Of a stretch of DNA of 64,000 nt, positions 17,642 to 63,249 are shown piece after piece. Made by a program: the position numbers and the translations under genes. The first letter of the stretch is position 1; each line of letters begins with the position of its first letter. The stretch comes from Desulfobulbus propionicus (GTDB lineage: Bacteria > Desulfobacterota > Desulfobulbia > Desulfobulbales > Desulfobulbaceae). The stretch covers positions 62,001 to 126,000 of the forward strand of contig PDTE01000025.1 of assembly GCA_002747135.1 (NCBI GenBank), written 5' to 3'. A model generated the notes under the pieces. The model did no database searches. It saw nothing but the letters and a program-made list of their open reading frames with translations, and was not told where the DNA came from.

Positions 17642-19969
17642 TTACAACAAATTTTGTAGAAAAACCCTCTTGCGAAAAAAAGCTATCATGGCTTTTCTCT
17701 TTGCCAAAATTCTTATCTGTTCAGGAATGAGATCAGACAGGTCATGCATCATTATTGACATTTTATAGTCAATGTTTGGTGCAAATCGATTATCAAGGTA
17801 CCAGGCATAAAAAAGACCAAAAAAAAGTCCGGGGGGAGTAAAACCATCCTTACCGTTGATAACCCGATAATACAACCGCTCAACATTTGCAGACAGAGTC
17901 ATTTTGCAAAGCTGAAGATAAGCGGTTATATCCTCAATGGATAAAAAGCTTTTCAGAAGGTGTTTTTCCTGGATGGTAAGCTGATAAACCTGGCCAACCC
18001 GCTCCCCATCGTGAAAAACGTCGGTCATCTTTTTTGACAAAGCGTAGTTTCCCAGCAGCGATTGACCCAGGGCAACAAGAAACACTGCCTCGAAACGTTT
18101 ATCCTGATCAGTCTGATCAAGTCGAATCTTTATCTTTCTGTCCACAGGGTCATAAAAGGAAAACACATTATCCCACTGCTGGCATCTCTTCCATCTTTCC
18201 GGAACAATGAGACTGAAACCTCGGATATAGCGCAGGTGCTCTATCTGAATATCCGGATGCTGCCAGATTATACCTGCCAGTCGCTCAAATAAAGTATCCT
18301 GACGTTTTTTTTGCGCTGCCGCAGATACGGCGGTCTGTTCACCTATAATCTCAAGAGACAGGCTGTTTAACATTCTCTGAATATATTTAAAACGCATACA
18401 GGGAATAATCATCTGCGGACATGATTCTCTCTGAACAAAGGTTGAGGGGTGCATCTCCAGCTTTGGCGTCACTGTTTCAGTGAGGCTGTCAGTGTTTTTC
18501 AATACCCATAACGTCTTGATCGCCCCGGCAATTGCATCCGGGTCGTGCTGAATGATGCCATTGTCACGCAGCAGGGCCTCGGAATATATCCTGGCGATTA
18601 TTGGCCGCAGCCCCATGGATTCGATTTCTTCCCGATCTACATAAATAGGTTCCTTGTCTTCCAGGGCATATCTTTGCAGGATAGAGCCGGGAATATCCCG
18701 CATTTTCAGACATAACACATGTGAAAACAGTGAATGGATACCGCCAGGGATATTACGGTGATACGCCCTGATCAGATCGGATACATGAAATTTTCTCTCC
18801 GGGGAATCCCTGGTTACATCAGTTTCTCCTTTCTGCACCCAGATGTTGGCAACAAGTACTTTTAAAGCTGACCTGTTCCGCCGGACAACCTCAGCTATTT
18901 CAGGGATCTGGAGAATAGGGATAATCGAAGTATACAGACTCCCTGGCGCAAAGACTATAATATCAGCACTGGATATGACCTCAACCACTTCAGGCGGCAA
19001 AAAAGGCTGGCAGCTGAAATCAATAAATATCCGGTCAACCGGATAGCCGCGTTGTGCCTGACCGGATTTGTATTCACTGGAAACAAGCACCCCGTTGTCG
19101 TACAGAACCTGCAGCTGCGACATGGTGGTGGTACAGGGAAGAACGCTGTCAGGACTCGCCCCGATCATACTGGTCAGCTTGCCTAAACCTTTTAAGGTGG
19201 CTGTTCCCATGATGCGGGGAGAGGCCAGCAGATCATCTTCGCTCAAATTTTCATCCAGCTGCTCATAGACGGCAGAGGCAAGAAGAAGATTCCCCAGACA
19301 GTGTTTCCTCTGCAGGACCGGGTTCAACCTTTTATCGTCAAAGAGCCTGCGAATCAACCCTTCCAGAAAACGCCCTAGTTCGGACGGAAGATTCATGACC
19401 CTTGCCCCGCTTTCCTGTATCACTTCGCCGGCTGATTCGGGGGGTGCTGGAAAACGATAATTAAAAAGATCATAAAGTATTCCTGCCACCTCGCAGGCTT
19501 CTTCAGCACCAAGCTGATACCTTCGTATGAGCGTTTGTTTTCGAACGGCTGAAAGCAGGACATGACGCAAGTCACCCAGGGCAATCAGGGGCAAATCCTT
19601 CAGCAGTTCACCTGTTGAGCCTCCATCATCAGTGGTACAGACTATTGAGGATAATTCAGCAAAATATTTCTTCAGGCCTGAAAATGGGCGGTCTCTCCAG
19701 CCTGGTTTTCGTGAATCGCCGCCAATGATAGTTGAAAGCCCGGTGCCGCCGCCAAAGGCTACCACCCTGGTGTTTTGAAAATCAAAGGAAGAAATATACT
19801 CATGGACGCCCCTTAAATACAGCGATACCTTTTCTGTTCTGCTGCAAGCAACCTCCTCCAGCATCAGGCTCGTTACTTTTTCGGCAAGATTCGTTCCGGG
19901 AAGAAAATCAGCTGGAGCGAAGGCACCGGCATAAAGGTCTTTTATCTTACTTTTAATGTCACTACTCAC
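17642..19969 (-). CDS. YvcK/CofD-family protein with long C-terminal extension (775 aa)
   Basis: VVAFGGGTGLSTIIGG, CTTDDGGSTGELL, LGDLRHVLLSA, GNLLLASAV; predicted GTG start lies in a repeat. Confidence 0.82.
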   Translation of the reverse strand: MSSDIKSKIKDLYAGAFAPADFLPGTNLAEKVTSLMLEEVACSRTEKVSLYLRGVHEYISSFDFQNTRVVAFGGGTGLSTIIGGDSRKPGWRDRPFSGLKKYFAELSSIVCTTDDGGSTGELLKDLPLIALGDLRHVLLSAVRKQTLIRRYQLGAEEACEVAGILYDLFNYRFPAPPESAGEVIQESGARVMNLPSELGRFLEGLIRRLFDDKRLNPVLQRKHCLGNLLLASAVYEQLDENLSEDDLLASPRIMGTATLKGLGKLTSMIGASPDSVLPCTTTMSQLQVLYDNGVLVSSEYKSGQAQRGYPVDRIFIDFSCQPFLPPEVVEVISSADIIVFAPGSLYTSIIPILQIPEIAEVVRRNRSALKVLVANIWVQKGETDVTRDSPERKFHVSDLIRAYHRNIPGGIHSLFSHVLCLKMRDIPGSILQRYALEDKEPIYVDREEIESMGLRPIIARIYSEALLRDNGIIQHDPDAIAGAIKTLWVLKNTDSLTETVTPKLEMHPSTFVQRESCPQMIIPCMRFKYIQRMLNSLSLEIIGEQTAVSAAAQKKRQDTLFERLAGIIWQHPDIQIEHLRYIRGFSLIVPERWKRCQQWDNVFSFYDPVDRKIKIRLDQTDQDKRFEAVFLVALGQSLLGNYALSKKMTDVFHDGERVGQVYQLTIQEKHLLKSFLSIEDITAYLQLCKMTLSANVERLYYRVINGKDGFTPPGLFFGLFYAWYLDNRFAPNIDYKMSIMMHDLSDLIPEQIRILAKRKAMIAFFRKRVFLQNLL

Positions 19970-20174
19970 TGGGCACGTACCACCCTGATTTTTCTTGCTA
20001 CAGGTAACCAGTCACGGAGCTTGTACTTCTTCATTATTCTCTTATTCTGGTGTGTAACTGGTCACAGGTGCAACAGAACTGGACAGGCACCATTTCCCGC
20101 AGGCAAGCAGGCGAAGTGAGACGTTTGTGTGCTTCGGTAATTTTCACAAGTTACCTTTTAATATCAGATATATA

Positions 20175-45247: not shown

Positions 45248-46642
45248 ATGAAAACAATTCTGCTTGTTGATGACGAACCTAATTATCAGATCGTTTTGTC
45301 CGAACTGCTTCGGGACGAAGGGTATGAAATCTATACGGCAGACAGTGGTATATCAGGTCTGCCAATAGTACTCGGCTCCGATATTGACCTGGTTATCACT
45401 GATATGAAAATGCCGGGAATGGATGGCATTGAGTTTCTTGGAAAAATAAAGGAATACAACAAAGAGCTTCCAGTTATACTCCTTACGGCCTTTGCTGAAG
45501 TGGAAAAAGCTGTTGAAGCCATGCGCCTTGGTGCTTTTACCTATCTGGCGAAACCCTTCTCCAACGAACAGCTTCTTGCTGCAATTGCAAAAGCGATTGA
45601 ACACTATAATCTCTTTAAGGAAATACGCCGACTTCGGGATGAAGCGAGTCCACGCACGGGCTTTGAGGGGATGATTGGCAAGAACCCAAAAATGCTGGCA
45701 GTGTATCAGCTTATTGAAAAAGTGTCGCCGACTCCTTCTTCTGTCCTTATTACCGGTGAATCAGGAACAGGAAAAGAACTCGTTGCCAGGGCAATACACA
45801 ACTTGAGCACCAGAAAGGACGCAGCCTTTATCTCGGTAAACTGTGCTGCGCTCTCAGAACATCTCCTTGAAAGTGAACTGTTTGGCCATGAAAAAGGAGC
45901 TTTTACAGATGCGGTTGCCATGCGCAAAGGTCGTTTTGAGATAGCCGACTCAGGAACACTGTTTCTGGACGAGATTGGCGAAATGCCGCCACAACTCCAG
46001 GCTAAACTGCTTCGGGTACTGCAGGAAAAACAATTTGAACGTGTCGGCGGCAACACAACCCTTGTGGCTGATGTCAGAATACTTGCTGCCACCAACAAGG
46101 AACTAAAAGATGAGGTTGAAAAAGGGGTATTTAGAGAAGACCTGTATTATCGTCTCAACGTCATTCATATACACCTCGTTCCCCTGAGAGAAAGGATTGA
46201 CGATATTCCGGCCCTGGTTGGACACTTCATCGACAAGAACAAAAAAAATCTGAACAAGGAGCTGGCTATTTCTCCTGAGGCAATGCGCCTTCTTGTCTCT
46301 CTGCCCTGGGAGGGTAATGTACGCGAGCTTGAAAATACCATTGAGCGGGCCGCCATTCTCTGTTCAGAAGGACTTATCGAGGCTGATGATGTCCAGCCTG
46401 ATTCAAGCACCCTTAATCCGAACCAGGAATGGAGTTCAGGTCTTGATCTGCAGCAGTTTATTCCGGAAAGTCTCAGCCTTGCAGAGATTCTTGGCGGCAT
46501 TGAAGAAACCCTGGTTCGTCAGGCCCTGGAAGAAGCTGGTCACGTTCAGGCGAGAGCTGCTGAGCAATTAGGAATCACCAAGAGTCTTCTTCAATACAAG
46601 ATGAAAAAATACAAAATTCAAAAAAAGAAAAAAGGTAACTGA
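45248..46642 (+). CDS. Sigma-54-dependent NtrC-family response regulator
   Basis: REC, GESGTGKELVARAIH, GAFTDA, C-terminal Fis-like HTH. Confidence 0.96.
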   Translation: MKTILLVDDEPNYQIVLSELLRDEGYEIYTADSGISGLPIVLGSDIDLVITDMKMPGMDGIEFLGKIKEYNKELPVILLTAFAEVEKAVEAMRLGAFTYLAKPFSNEQLLAAIAKAIEHYNLFKEIRRLRDEASPRTGFEGMIGKNPKMLAVYQLIEKVSPTPSSVLITGESGTGKELVARAIHNLSTRKDAAFISVNCAALSEHLLESELFGHEKGAFTDAVAMRKGRFEIADSGTLFLDEIGEMPPQLQAKLLRVLQEKQFERVGGNTTLVADVRILAATNKELKDEVEKGVFREDLYYRLNVIHIHLVPLRERIDDIPALVGHFIDKNKKNLNKELAISPEAMRLLVSLPWEGNVRELENTIERAAILCSEGLIEADDVQPDSSTLNPNQEWSSGLDLQQFIPESLSLAEILGGIEETLVRQALEEAGHVQARAAEQLGITKSLLQYKMKKYKIQKKKKGN

Positions 46643-46819
46643 TCACGGGCAGTTCATCTCTTCCCGAGCACTCTTTTCCGCATACTCTTGTCCACGAAAG
46701 TCTTACTTTGCCAGCTTACCTGCCCGAAAGGGTGCCTGCCCAATTCTGCTGCACCCCTGACCAGCGACAGGTCAGAAACAGAGCATAACGCTTACAGTAC
46801 AGGCCCCGTGACTGGTGAC
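46635..46819. repeat. GTAAC repeat (B-type, full)
   Basis: GTAACTGATCACGGGCAGTTCATCTC...CACCCCTGACCAGCGAC + tail ending CCCCGTGACTGGTGAC. Confidence 0.85.
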
Positions 46820-54751: not shown

Positions 54752-54906
54752 ACTACTCACACAGCACGTAACATACTTATTTCATTTGATGAAATTTTAA
54801 GCCTGCTTTGAGATTGCTCAGATTTGCCAGGAGCGATTGGCAGCTATAGCCTCTCTGTGCGGCCAATCGTGATCGACCGAAGAGAGGTAAGCGTGGAGCA
54901 GTTACC
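54752..54906. repeat. GTAAC repeat (C-type)
   Basis: ACTACTCACACAGCACGTAAC...GATTGGCAGCTATAGCCTCTCTGTGCGGCCAATCGTGATCGACCGAAGAGAGG...GGAGCAGTTAC. Confidence 0.75.
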
Positions 54907-55402
54907 CGGCAGTTTCAATCAACCCTTTTTCCGCCGCAAGAGTACGGACCGACAGCATGAAAGTCGACGGCATGGGCAGTGCTCTTGTTTCCTGAAGAAT
55001 TCCCAGTTCCCTGGCCATCAGCAGGGAGGGAATGGAATAAATCCCCTCCTGATTGTCACAGATCACCTTCATGCGAAGCGCATCAGTAAGAAAGGGACAC
55101 AAGTCGCTCAGACGAATGGCAACCTGCCTCAGCTCCTGCTCAACAAGATCCCGGTTTTTATTAGCAAAATCAACAATTTTCTGATCAGAGGGCTCTGTGC
55201 CAAAAAGATTGTTGACAACTGCCCCGGCGAGCATTGTCAGGCGATGCTGATCCTCAGGTTCTGTTCTTTTTCCAAGATCATTCTTCAGTGCCTGAAAAAA
55301 GACCATCTGAACCATTGACACCGCTTCCCGCATCACTGGTATGGTTTTACTGTCCCATGACACTCCAGGAACACGCTCTCTTTCTTTTGGGTAACTACTC
55401 AC
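54902..55402 (-). CDS. Conserved hypothetical protein; start and stop both in repeats
   Basis: 166 aa; GTG start MSSYPKERERVPG and TAA stop both fall in GTAAC-repeat ends. Confidence 0.6.
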   Translation of the reverse strand: MSSYPKERERVPGVSWDSKTIPVMREAVSMVQMVFFQALKNDLGKRTEPEDQHRLTMLAGAVVNNLFGTEPSDQKIVDFANKNRDLVEQELRQVAIRLSDLCPFLTDALRMKVICDNQEGIYSIPSLLMARELGILQETRALPMPSTFMLSVRTLAAEKGLIETAG

Positions 55403-59219: not shown

Positions 59220-60506
59220 ATGCTGTATTCACAGGCCTGTAGATATCTTGAAGAATTACAGTTCTTCACCATAAAACTTGGTCTTGAAGCCACAGGTGCC
59301 CTTCTGCTCCATCTTGGTTCCCCCCAGAATTGTTATCCTGCCATACATCTGGCAGGAACCAACGGGAAAGGTTCAGCTGGAGCCATGCTTTCCTCGCTAC
59401 TCAGTACCAATGGCTATAAAACAGGCTTTTACTCTTCTCCTCATTTAGGTTCCATACGTGAACGATTTCAGATCAATGGTACCCTTATTTCGCAAAAAGA
59501 ATTTGCTGACACTGCGGCAATAATCATCAATATCCTGCAGAAACGAAAGATTACTTATTTCGAATTTACCACTGCACTGGCATTTCTCTGGTTTAAAAAT
59601 CAGCAGGTGGACATTGCCGTCATCGAGGCGGGTCTTGGCGGAAGACTTGATGCCACCAACGTCATGTTCCCTCTTGTTTCAGTTATCACGAATATTGCCC
59701 TGGACCACCAGCAGTATCTGGGATCGACAATCGAACAGATAACGTATGAAAAAGCAGGCATCATTAAACCTCACACGCCCGTGGTTTCAGGGGTAGAGCA
59801 GCAACCAGCCAAAAATATTATCAAAAAAGCATGTGCTGAAAAAGCCTGTCCATTGTATACCCTCAAAGACGATTTTATTATCGAACAAACCTCTGATACA
59901 TACAGGTATTTGTCCACAACAACAGGGTATGAGCTTGACAGGCTGACAATACCACTGGCAGGAAGACATCAGAAAAAAAATGCCGCTCTTGCCCTGGCTG
60001 CGCTGGAGATGGTCGGGCAAAGCGGCTTTACGTTTACCAAACAGTCTCTGAGAAAAGGGCTCGCAACGGTTCAGTGGCCGGGAAGAATGGAGCGGCTTTA
60101 TACAACAGCAAACGGGCAGAAATACCATTATCTTCTTGACGGGGCTCATAACGAAGCTGGGGTAGCCTGCCTGCTTGACACCCTTAAACAGGATCTCGCC
60201 GAAAAAAGGATTATTCTGCTTTGGGGACAAATGGCTGACAAAAAGACAGGTGTTTATTTCACTGAATTGCTGCAACTGGCAGCCCTTATCATACTTACTC
60301 AGGCGGAAACAGAACGTTCAGCTTCACCTCGTGATATGCTGGAGAGCTTACCAGAACCATTGCCTGCAAAAACCATCTGCCGGGACGAAGTAGAAAGTGC
60401 CCTGCGTTCTGCTGAAAAACATGCAGATACAAGCAGTCTGATCTGCATCGCAGGTTCTCTTTATCTGGTTGGAAAGGCGAGAGAACTTCTAACAAAAAGA
60501 AGGTAA
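59220..60506 (+). CDS. folC: Folylpolyglutamate synthase / dihydrofolate synthase
   Basis: HLAGTNGKGSAGAMLSSLL, FYSSPHLGSIRERFQING, VIEAGLGGRLDATNV. Confidence 0.93.
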   Translation: MLYSQACRYLEELQFFTIKLGLEATGALLLHLGSPQNCYPAIHLAGTNGKGSAGAMLSSLLSTNGYKTGFYSSPHLGSIRERFQINGTLISQKEFADTAAIIINILQKRKITYFEFTTALAFLWFKNQQVDIAVIEAGLGGRLDATNVMFPLVSVITNIALDHQQYLGSTIEQITYEKAGIIKPHTPVVSGVEQQPAKNIIKKACAEKACPLYTLKDDFIIEQTSDTYRYLSTTTGYELDRLTIPLAGRHQKKNAALALAALEMVGQSGFTFTKQSLRKGLATVQWPGRMERLYTTANGQKYHYLLDGAHNEAGVACLLDTLKQDLAEKRIILLWGQMADKKTGVYFTELLQLAALIILTQAETERSASPRDMLESLPEPLPAKTICRDEVESALRSAEKHADTSSLICIAGSLYLVGKARELLTKRR

Positions 60507-60735
60507 CCAATCACAGGGGTTGTATTGTAGGCGTCATTCTCTGCTTCTGACCTGTACCTGGTCACGGGTGCGGCAGCATTGTGCAGGCACTCTTTTTAGC
60601 AGGTAAGCAAGCGAAGTGAGACGTTCGTGTACAGGAGTCTGCGGGAAAGAGTGATCGGGCAAAGATGAACTGCCTGAGAGCAGTTACACGTTTGAGGCAG
60701 GTAAAACCAGAGCGTTACACGCCCAGTGAGTAGTT
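60503..60735. repeat. GTAAC repeat chimera (inverted B-type body, C-type end and tail)
   Basis: GTAACCAATCACAGG...GTACCTGGTCACGGGTGCGGCAGC...GCCTGAGAGCAGTTACACGTTTGAGGCAGGTAAAACCAGAGCGTTACACGCCCAGTGAGTAGTTAC. Confidence 0.82.
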
Positions 60736-61013
60736 ACGACAAGAAAAGAATAAAAAAAGAGCGGGACAAGGCTCGTCAACTCCGCAAAACACGCTGGTGG
60801 CAAAAAAAAACATCATCAGGCAGGTGTTACTATTGCGGCAGGGCAGTCGGGTTCAGCGATCTGACCATGGATCACGTCATACCTCTGTCCCGGGGAGGGA
60901 ACAGCAGCAAGGATAACCTTGTCCCCTGCTGCAAGACATGCAATACCAAAAAAAGATCCTCCCTGCCTGTTGAGTGGAAGGAGTATATGGAGAGGCTGAA
61001 CAAAATAACATGA
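60726..61013 (+). CDS. HNH endonuclease
   Basis: CYYCGRAVGFSDLTMDHVIPLSRGGNSSKDNLVPCCKTCNTKK; only standard start codon upstream of the HNH core is GTG in a repeat. Confidence 0.88.
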   Translation: MSSYDKKRIKKERDKARQLRKTRWWQKKTSSGRCYYCGRAVGFSDLTMDHVIPLSRGGNSSKDNLVPCCKTCNTKKRSSLPVEWKEYMERLNKIT

Positions 61014-61780: not shown

Positions 61781-61924
61781 CCTGAAAGCAGTTACAGAGT
61801 TAAAAGCTAACCCGGATTTCTCATGAACATGTTGTCTGATCTAAAAAGAAACACATAAAAACAGATGTATGCGATGTCCGTAAGCAGTCTCAGGTTTCGA
61901 CAAAATGTTCACGAGAAATCCGGG

Positions 61925-62092
61925 CTCGTGTCCTGTCAACGCTGTCCTGTCGTATCCTGCCTGTCTTTTTCAGCCCTTATGCAGCCTTGCCCTGTGTCAC
62001 CCGGCCCTACTATGCAGCGCAGGACAAGGCGGCATAGAAACAAGAAAAATCCGGCGCAATATCCTGACATTTCAGCGTTGACAGGACACGAG
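61925..62092 (+). repeat. Element A4, best-preserved copy
   Basis: CTCGTGTCCTGTCAACGCTG...CAGCGTTGACAGGACACGAG. Confidence 0.88.
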
Positions 62093-62130
62093 TGAAAGCA
62101 AGGTGATACATGCCCAGGTGAGCAGTTACA

Positions 62131-63249
62131 ATGAAAAGTTATTTTGCTCCTGCTGAAAGAGCGAAAAAAGAAGAAATCCAGGAAAAAATCAGGTATGTCA
62201 GCTCCAGTCCACTGATGTCGGCACTGCTCAATTCCGTTGGCGGGCTTCTTGCCGTTCTTGATGAGCACCGGCAGATTCTGGCGGTAAACGAAACCTTTCT
62301 GAAAATGATTGGGGCAAAAGATCCTGAAGCATCACTCGGCCTCAGGATGGGAGAGGTGCTGGATTGTGTTCATGCCCATGAAGAGAAAGGCGGCTGTGGT
62401 ACAGCCCTGGCATGTGCGACCTGTGGCGCAGCAATTGCGACAATGCTCAGTATCAATAAGGGCAAGCCGGCCGAAGAAATATGTGCGCTGACCATTGAAA
62501 AATCAGAAAAACAGGTCGATATGGCCCTGCAGGTCAGAGTACAGCCGGTTTGTGTTGAAGAAAGGATGTTCTACCTGCTTCTTTTACTGGATATTACCGA
62601 ACAACAGCAGCATGCGGCACTGGAGAAGACCTTTTATCACGATATAAACAATATGATGCAGGCACTGGTGGGGGCGAGTGAACTGCTGAGTGTGGAAAAT
62701 CCTTCCAAGACTTCGGAAATGGTGAAACAAGTGGTATTCCGGCTGAACCGGGAGATTGCCATTCAGCGGGCACTATCAACAGAAAGGGAAGGAAAATACC
62801 AGCCATTCTGGCGCAAATACGGTGTCGAGCAGATCATTAAGGAGCTGCTCGATCTGTCCCGGCAGCATCCGGCTGCGACGGGGAAAACGATTGAATATCC
62901 GGATGAAATCCCGCCCCGCTTCTTGAAGACTGATATATCTCTGCTCTTACGAGTTCTCGGTAACATGGTTATCAATGCGCTCGAAGAGACAGCTGAAGGA
63001 GATATCGTCAGGATACAGCTTGAACCGGAAACCGGCTTTTTTTCTTTCTGTGTCTGGAACAACCAGGTAATACCTGATCAGATCGTTCCCCGGATTTTTC
63101 AGCGGCATTTCAGCACCAAAAAAGGGGCTGGAAGAGGGATCGGGACCTACTCGATGAAATTTTTTGGTGAGCAGTTACTTGGAGGCGAGGTTTCGTTCAC
63201 GACCTCAAAAGATAATGGAACCGTTTTCAGACTCAAAATCCCTGCCTGA
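62131..63249 (+). CDS. PAS-domain sensor histidine kinase
   Basis: PAS, YHDINNMMQALVGASELL, HATPase-like LLRVLGNMVINALEE...FSTKKGAGRGIGTYSMK. Confidence 0.82.
   Translation: MKSYFAPAERAKKEEIQEKIRYVSSSPLMSALLNSVGGLLAVLDEHRQILAVNETFLKMIGAKDPEASLGLRMGEVLDCVHAHEEKGGCGTALACATCGAAIATMLSINKGKPAEEICALTIEKSEKQVDMALQVRVQPVCVEERMFYLLLLLDITEQQQHAALEKTFYHDINNMMQALVGASELLSVENPSKTSEMVKQVVFRLNREIAIQRALSTEREGKYQPFWRKYGVEQIIKELLDLSRQHPAATGKTIEYPDEIPPRFLKTDISLLLRVLGNMVINALEETAEGDIVRIQLEPETGFFSFCVWNNQVIPDQIVPRIFQRHFSTKKGAGRGIGTYSMKFFGEQLLGGEVSFTTSKDNGTVFRLKIPA

Follow-up and report, generated by a model that had tools for sequence, protein, structure and literature searches.

A chimeric MITE-like repeat supplies the stop codon of folC and the only standard start codon of the adjoining HNH endonuclease gene in Desulfobulbus propionicus

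The window (the whole 64,000-nucleotide stretch of Desulfobulbus propionicus contig PDTE01000025.1 that was analysed) contains a folC gene followed by a small HNH endonuclease gene, and the two are separated by a repeat. The features at and near this locus are the following:

59220-60506, + strand: folC (folylpolyglutamate synthase / Mur-ligase family), the upstream partner of the HNH gene
60503-60687, + strand: full-length B-type MITE, 185 bp, with about 80% identity to window 46635-46819 reversed
60504-60506, + strand: folC stop codon TAA in the left end of the repeat (G-TAA-C)
60672-60737, + strand: A-type MITE (158-bp type), represented by its right-hand 66 bp and joined to the B-type copy
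60702-60704, + strand: TAA in frame upstream of the HNH gene, within the repeat
60726-60737, + strand: terminal inverted repeat GTGAGTAGTTAC, Met-Ser-Ser-Tyr if read as the HNH start
60726-60728, + strand: GTG, the sole standard HNH start before the core motif
60726-61013, + strand: HNH endonuclease gene, 95 aa, with an N-terminus shorter than in orthologues and intact HNH motif residues
61623-61780, + strand: A-type MITE of 158 bp, intact, between two copies of the perfect 8-bp duplication CCTGAAAG

The product of the downstream gene matched the Pfam families HNH_5 (1.4e-14) and HNH (3.3e-14) and carries the conserved Cys and DH...N residues, which identifies it as an HNH endonuclease. Its CYYCGR core begins at codon 34 and the first ATG is found at codon 48, i.e. 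past the core. When codons 1-40 were scanned for standard and near-cognate starts only GTG 60726 and ATA 60750 were found, in agreement with the claim of an earlier note that the repeat tail holds the only standard start (GTG, 60726-60728), that no ATG, GTG or TTG occurs in frame from there to the core, and that an in-frame TAA at 60702 lies upstream. The reading of the tail into the HNH gene also stood, but the end of the tail had been placed at 60735 and it runs two bases further: the sequence ACACGCCCAGTGAGTAGTTAC at the junction terminates at 60737. Everything upstream of HNH codon 5 in the window is repeat.

The repeats are MITE-like mobile elements. Terminal inverted repeats, GTAACTnCTCAC on the left and GTGAGnAGTTAC on the right, bound an abundant family, and the tail is not a chance sequence, since it was matched 61 times in the window with at most 2 mismatches (3.7 expected) and since 194 exact GTGAGnAGTTAC ends (97+97) were present in the 1.3-Mb draft genome compared with 0 for a reversed-pattern control, a copy number as high as that expected of MITEs. 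Elements were surveyed in the window and 20 further stretches (376 kb of stretches, 440 kb in all). As for other MITEs they are short, have inverted ends and lack a transposase gene; the A-type measured mainly 158 bp and the B-type 134 or 184/185 bp, so that most elements fell between 134 and 185 bp, with some of 93-242 bp. Perfect 8-bp target duplications flanked 16 of the 28 copies of 158 bp, and when duplication lengths of 2-11 were tested at these copies the only match at a length other than 8 was a single one of 7 bp. The family thus has the target duplication of fixed length that is typical of MITEs, although the copy at the HNH gene does not. The same ends occur in other genomes of the bacterial family, where several copies had 7/8 or 8/8 flank matches. 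Comparison of the repeat with Rfam gave no convincing RNA family. In one genome of the same order but another family (G048), 51 exact copies of the 12-bp end were seen and no IS66 transposase was found; given these copies the repeat family may extend beyond the genus.

The repeat between folC and the HNH gene (60503-60737, 235 bp) is a chimera that consists of positions 1-185 of a B-type element followed by the final 66 bp of an A-type copy, with 60672-60687 being sequence common to both types at the crossover (about 16 bp). The related B-type copy at 46635-46819 has a 7/8 target duplication. Among the blast matches listed, no other copy spans the B and A parts contiguously. The sequences flanking the chimera, AAAAGAAG and GACAAGAA, did not match, i.e. 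this copy lacks a target duplication. One simple insertion event next to the HNH gene was considered, and it is ruled out by the mismatched flanks and the chimeric structure.

In related genomes folC and the HNH gene are adjacent and commonly overlap by ATGA. Based on 57 loci with both genes (some genomes being counted from two collections), the HNH gene of close relatives mostly starts further upstream, typically by 5-8 codons, and in most cases overlaps or abuts folC. The orthologues therefore have a different N-terminus, approximately M..DYFSLDGIDEA.I[RK]AER, of which the peptide M..DYFSLDGIDEA is missing in the window. Here folC ends with ...ARELLTKRR, the HNH gene resumes with D-K-K-R-I-K-K-E-R and there is only repeat in between, so the native junction is missing on both flanks. 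The HNH protein is 66-74% identical to orthologues, and the cysteine and HNH residues that are invariant in 10 aligned orthologues are all intact. The coupling of a small HNH endonuclease gene to folC is very common across the bacterial order (L032-L122).

The left end of the repeat supplies the TAA of folC and the right end supplies the only standard start, GTG, of the HNH gene. Given that the chimera has no target duplication, a deletion between two insertions has probably removed the native junction. Non-autonomous MITEs, with inverted ends of 12 bp and target duplications of 8 bp, have inserted many times in the genome; according to this scenario a B-type copy would have landed at the 3' end of folC and an A-type copy at the 5' end of the adjoining HNH gene. 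A deletion between the two insertions would then have left the single chimeric repeat of 235 bp, with loss of the native folC stop and the native HNH start. The left end of the chimera (G-TAA-C) would now stop folC, while the right end, GTG AGT AGT TAC in frame with HNH, would provide a new start by which about 11 native residues were exchanged for Met-Ser-Ser-Tyr. We regard two insertions followed by a deletion as the simplest history; the anatomy of the chimera is directly visible, and the order of events is deduced from it. For the account as a whole, i.e. insertions, deletion and a chimera that supplies both the folC stop and the HNH start, we estimate a probability of roughly 0.7.

To find parallel cases, coding frames with a possible start in an outward-reading repeat end were collected and checked against relatives; because an in-frame GTG was required of every candidate, counting them gives no unbiased rate. 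Two of the genes found are in the window:

17642-19969, - strand: YvcK/CofD-like gene (complement, 19969), whose start apparently is the repeat-end GTG
19958-20154, - strand: MITE of 197 bp inserted at the YvcK/CofD-like 5' end and flanked by the perfect 8-bp duplication ATTAAAAG
54902-55402, - strand: fifth candidate gene (complement, 55402), which may start in a repeat end or else at a later GTG

In a HAD phosphatase-like gene (L142, complement, 11063), most relatives begin with ATG CTG AAA and the present gene reads GTGAGTAGTTAC-CTG-AAA (GTG AGT AGT TAC CTG AAA), with the next possible start only beyond the DxD motif. Before this gene two elements stand in tandem (L142, 11052-11385, reverse strand): one of 184 bp, which has the perfect 8-bp duplication GGTCTGGG, is located immediately upstream of another that is truncated at its 5' end. 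A TatD-like gene (L145, complement, 11130) is preceded by an element of 184 bp that lies between two copies of GTTGATGC, again a perfect 8-bp duplication. If the TatD flanks are joined without the element the frame continues upstream through a GTG (VNHSSSSTVTFVDAHIHLQD), i.e. to another start, and with the element in place the upstream stub is stopped by the TAA of the element. For YvcK the joined flanks (TAA TAT ATA TCT GAT ATT) contain no standard start between the stop of the upstream gene and YvcK itself; one might conjecture that the original start was lost by decay once the repeat had provided another, which would fit these startless flanks. In all three genes the homology to relatives generally sets in no more than a few residues from the repeat. 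Judged from these alignments, repeat ends appear to have taken over the start at HAD, TatD and YvcK as well, with TatD and YvcK apparently resulting from clean insertions. A further candidate for a start in a repeat end, at L146 (complement, 1630), has an N-terminus that is strongly diverged from its relatives. Several genes whose frame enters a repeat end in a register other than that of the GTG were also inspected, and most of these apparently have a start of their own downstream. In a related genome (G001) none of 28 inspected ends was clearly the sole start of a gene, nearly all of them being intergenic. With regard to stops, 94 coding frames reached a repeat-like left end and 16 of them stopped at or within its first 12 bases (11/16 at G-TAA), where some of the left ends are not true elements owing to the loose definition used (up to 3 mismatches).

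The earlier note had left two alternatives for the HNH gene, a start inside the repeat or a non-standard start, and the orthologue N-termini together with the parallel genes favour the former. Initiation at the repeat GTG (60726) is the likeliest reading, but it may be inefficient. Predicted Shine-Dalgarno pairing upstream of the repeat GTG was strong for HAD (-9.3 kcal/mol), YvcK (-8.0 kcal/mol) and TatD (-6.9 kcal/mol), and only -2.7 kcal/mol for HNH, which is close to the random median (-2.2 kcal/mol; the median for first ATGs of long frames was -3.2 kcal/mol). The HNH GTG is predicted to be fully paired in the long hairpin of the element (P about 1.0; z = -2.6 for the fold of the whole element), and mostly paired GTGs are likewise predicted for HAD and YvcK. 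No match to a sigma-70-type promoter was found at the HNH gene. The HNH gene may therefore be poorly translated or decaying, and decay is the main rival to initiation at the repeat GTG: the repeat would have cut off the native start and the GTG frame would be a leftover without useful translation, as could be expected from the weak Shine-Dalgarno sequence and the paired start codon, from the approximately 220 nt that now break translational coupling to folC and from the loss of conserved N-terminal residues. We consider this unlikely, since all 95 codons are open, the conserved cysteine and HNH residues are kept, the identity to orthologues is as high as given above, the GTG had one chance in three of being in frame, and the same capture of a start is seen at other genes that have good Shine-Dalgarno sequences.

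Considerably less probable than decay is an assembly error, by which repeat copies from different places were joined and the true sequence between folC and HNH differs. A misjoin at a repeat is conceivable in a fragmented, repeat-rich draft that is 69% complete, and the chimera was absent from the other surveyed copies and has no target duplication; however, adjacency of folC and HNH is the norm in relatives, and the stretch common to both element types at the joint is only about 16 bp long, which is less than the usual assembly overlap. Initiation past the repeat at ATA 60750 is the least probable, because its Shine-Dalgarno pairing is poor (-0.7 kcal/mol) and none of the other cases needs a non-standard start, even though table 11 allows ATA as a rare start and this one coincides with the onset of the well conserved stretch I-K-x-E-R.

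IS66-family insertion sequences generate 8-bp target duplications and have ends that begin with GTAA. As the present family shares both features, IS66 parentage was considered. Unlike what would be expected from IS66 parentage, the IS66 transposase (PF03050) was absent from the 69%-complete draft, and most IS66 loci of relatives (examined up to about 1.3 kb on each side) had no pair of MITE ends, none being seen as an insertion sequence bounded by such ends. One degraded IS66 transposase locus (L193 in genome G004, 713-2278) has one exact MITE end on each side, 1566 bp apart, which is possibly a hint at the parent transposon. Distant end pairs in one relative (2.2, 1.9 and 4.9 kb) were taken as candidate autonomous copies, and those of 2.2 and 1.9 kb contained ordinary genes and no transposase. 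The family was consequently not assigned to IS66, no IS66 transposase clearly bounded by the same ends having been found among these loci, and no clear parent emerged.

The folC-HNH case is well supported as the same kind of event as those described for MITEAba12 and BOX elements. In MITEAba12 of Acinetobacter, an inverted end read outward forms the first four residues (MQQS) of neighbouring genes, as the present end does for Met-Ser-Ser-Tyr, and another copy ends a gene by a premature stop codon (PMC6382973). MITEAba12 differs in its 16-bp inverted repeats, its end sequences and its host group, and in the passages considered the start fusions are given without the orthologue or empty-site evidence presented here (PMC6382973); furthermore, in our case both codons come from a single repeat, at a site where two genes formerly overlapped. 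In pneumococci, BOX elements likewise encode the stop codon of 36 genes, as well as a start codon in some of the transcripts; they are composed of modular units and gave no strong evidence of truncation of conserved proteins (PMC3049150), whereas here a conserved N-terminus has been replaced. Small mobile repeats that enter coding sequences are also seen in Rickettsia (palindromic elements) and in enterobacteria (RU repeats), but mostly as in-frame fusions within genes or at the C-terminus (PMC10969869, PMC2759123), in contrast to the supply of a start codon. To this kind of event the present case adds orthologue and empty-site support and the joint supply of stop and start at a former overlap.

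A mobile repeat that captures the start codons of conserved genes, and that in one case has split an overlapping pair, giving one gene a new stop and the other a new start, offers a concrete way for small repeats to redraw the limits of genes. Starts of this kind would be misplaced by gene callers that mask repeats. As a tentative and rather doubtful generalization, MITE ends could act as portable translation signals, with an inward stop (G-TAA-C), an outward GTG and in some subtypes a Shine-Dalgarno sequence, so that insertions at gene ends would be tolerated because the neighbours receive a working stop or start, while overlapping coupled genes would be broken up.

A different relation between repeat end and gene was observed further downstream in the window:

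62118-62129, + strand: repeat end located 1 nt before the ATG (62131) of a PAS-histidine kinase gene

This arrangement, in which 1 nt separates the repeat end from a following ATG (GTGAGCAGTTACaATG), was found at window 62118-62133, L157 9430 and L144 10905, and in the window AGGTGAG is at Shine-Dalgarno distance from the kinase ATG. Such ends may supply the ribosome-binding site rather than the start. Upstream of the histidine kinase gene there are also two back-to-back inverted repeats (61811-61924 and 61925-62092) with arms of 26 and 27 nt that are about 90% complementary, which apparently belong to another family.
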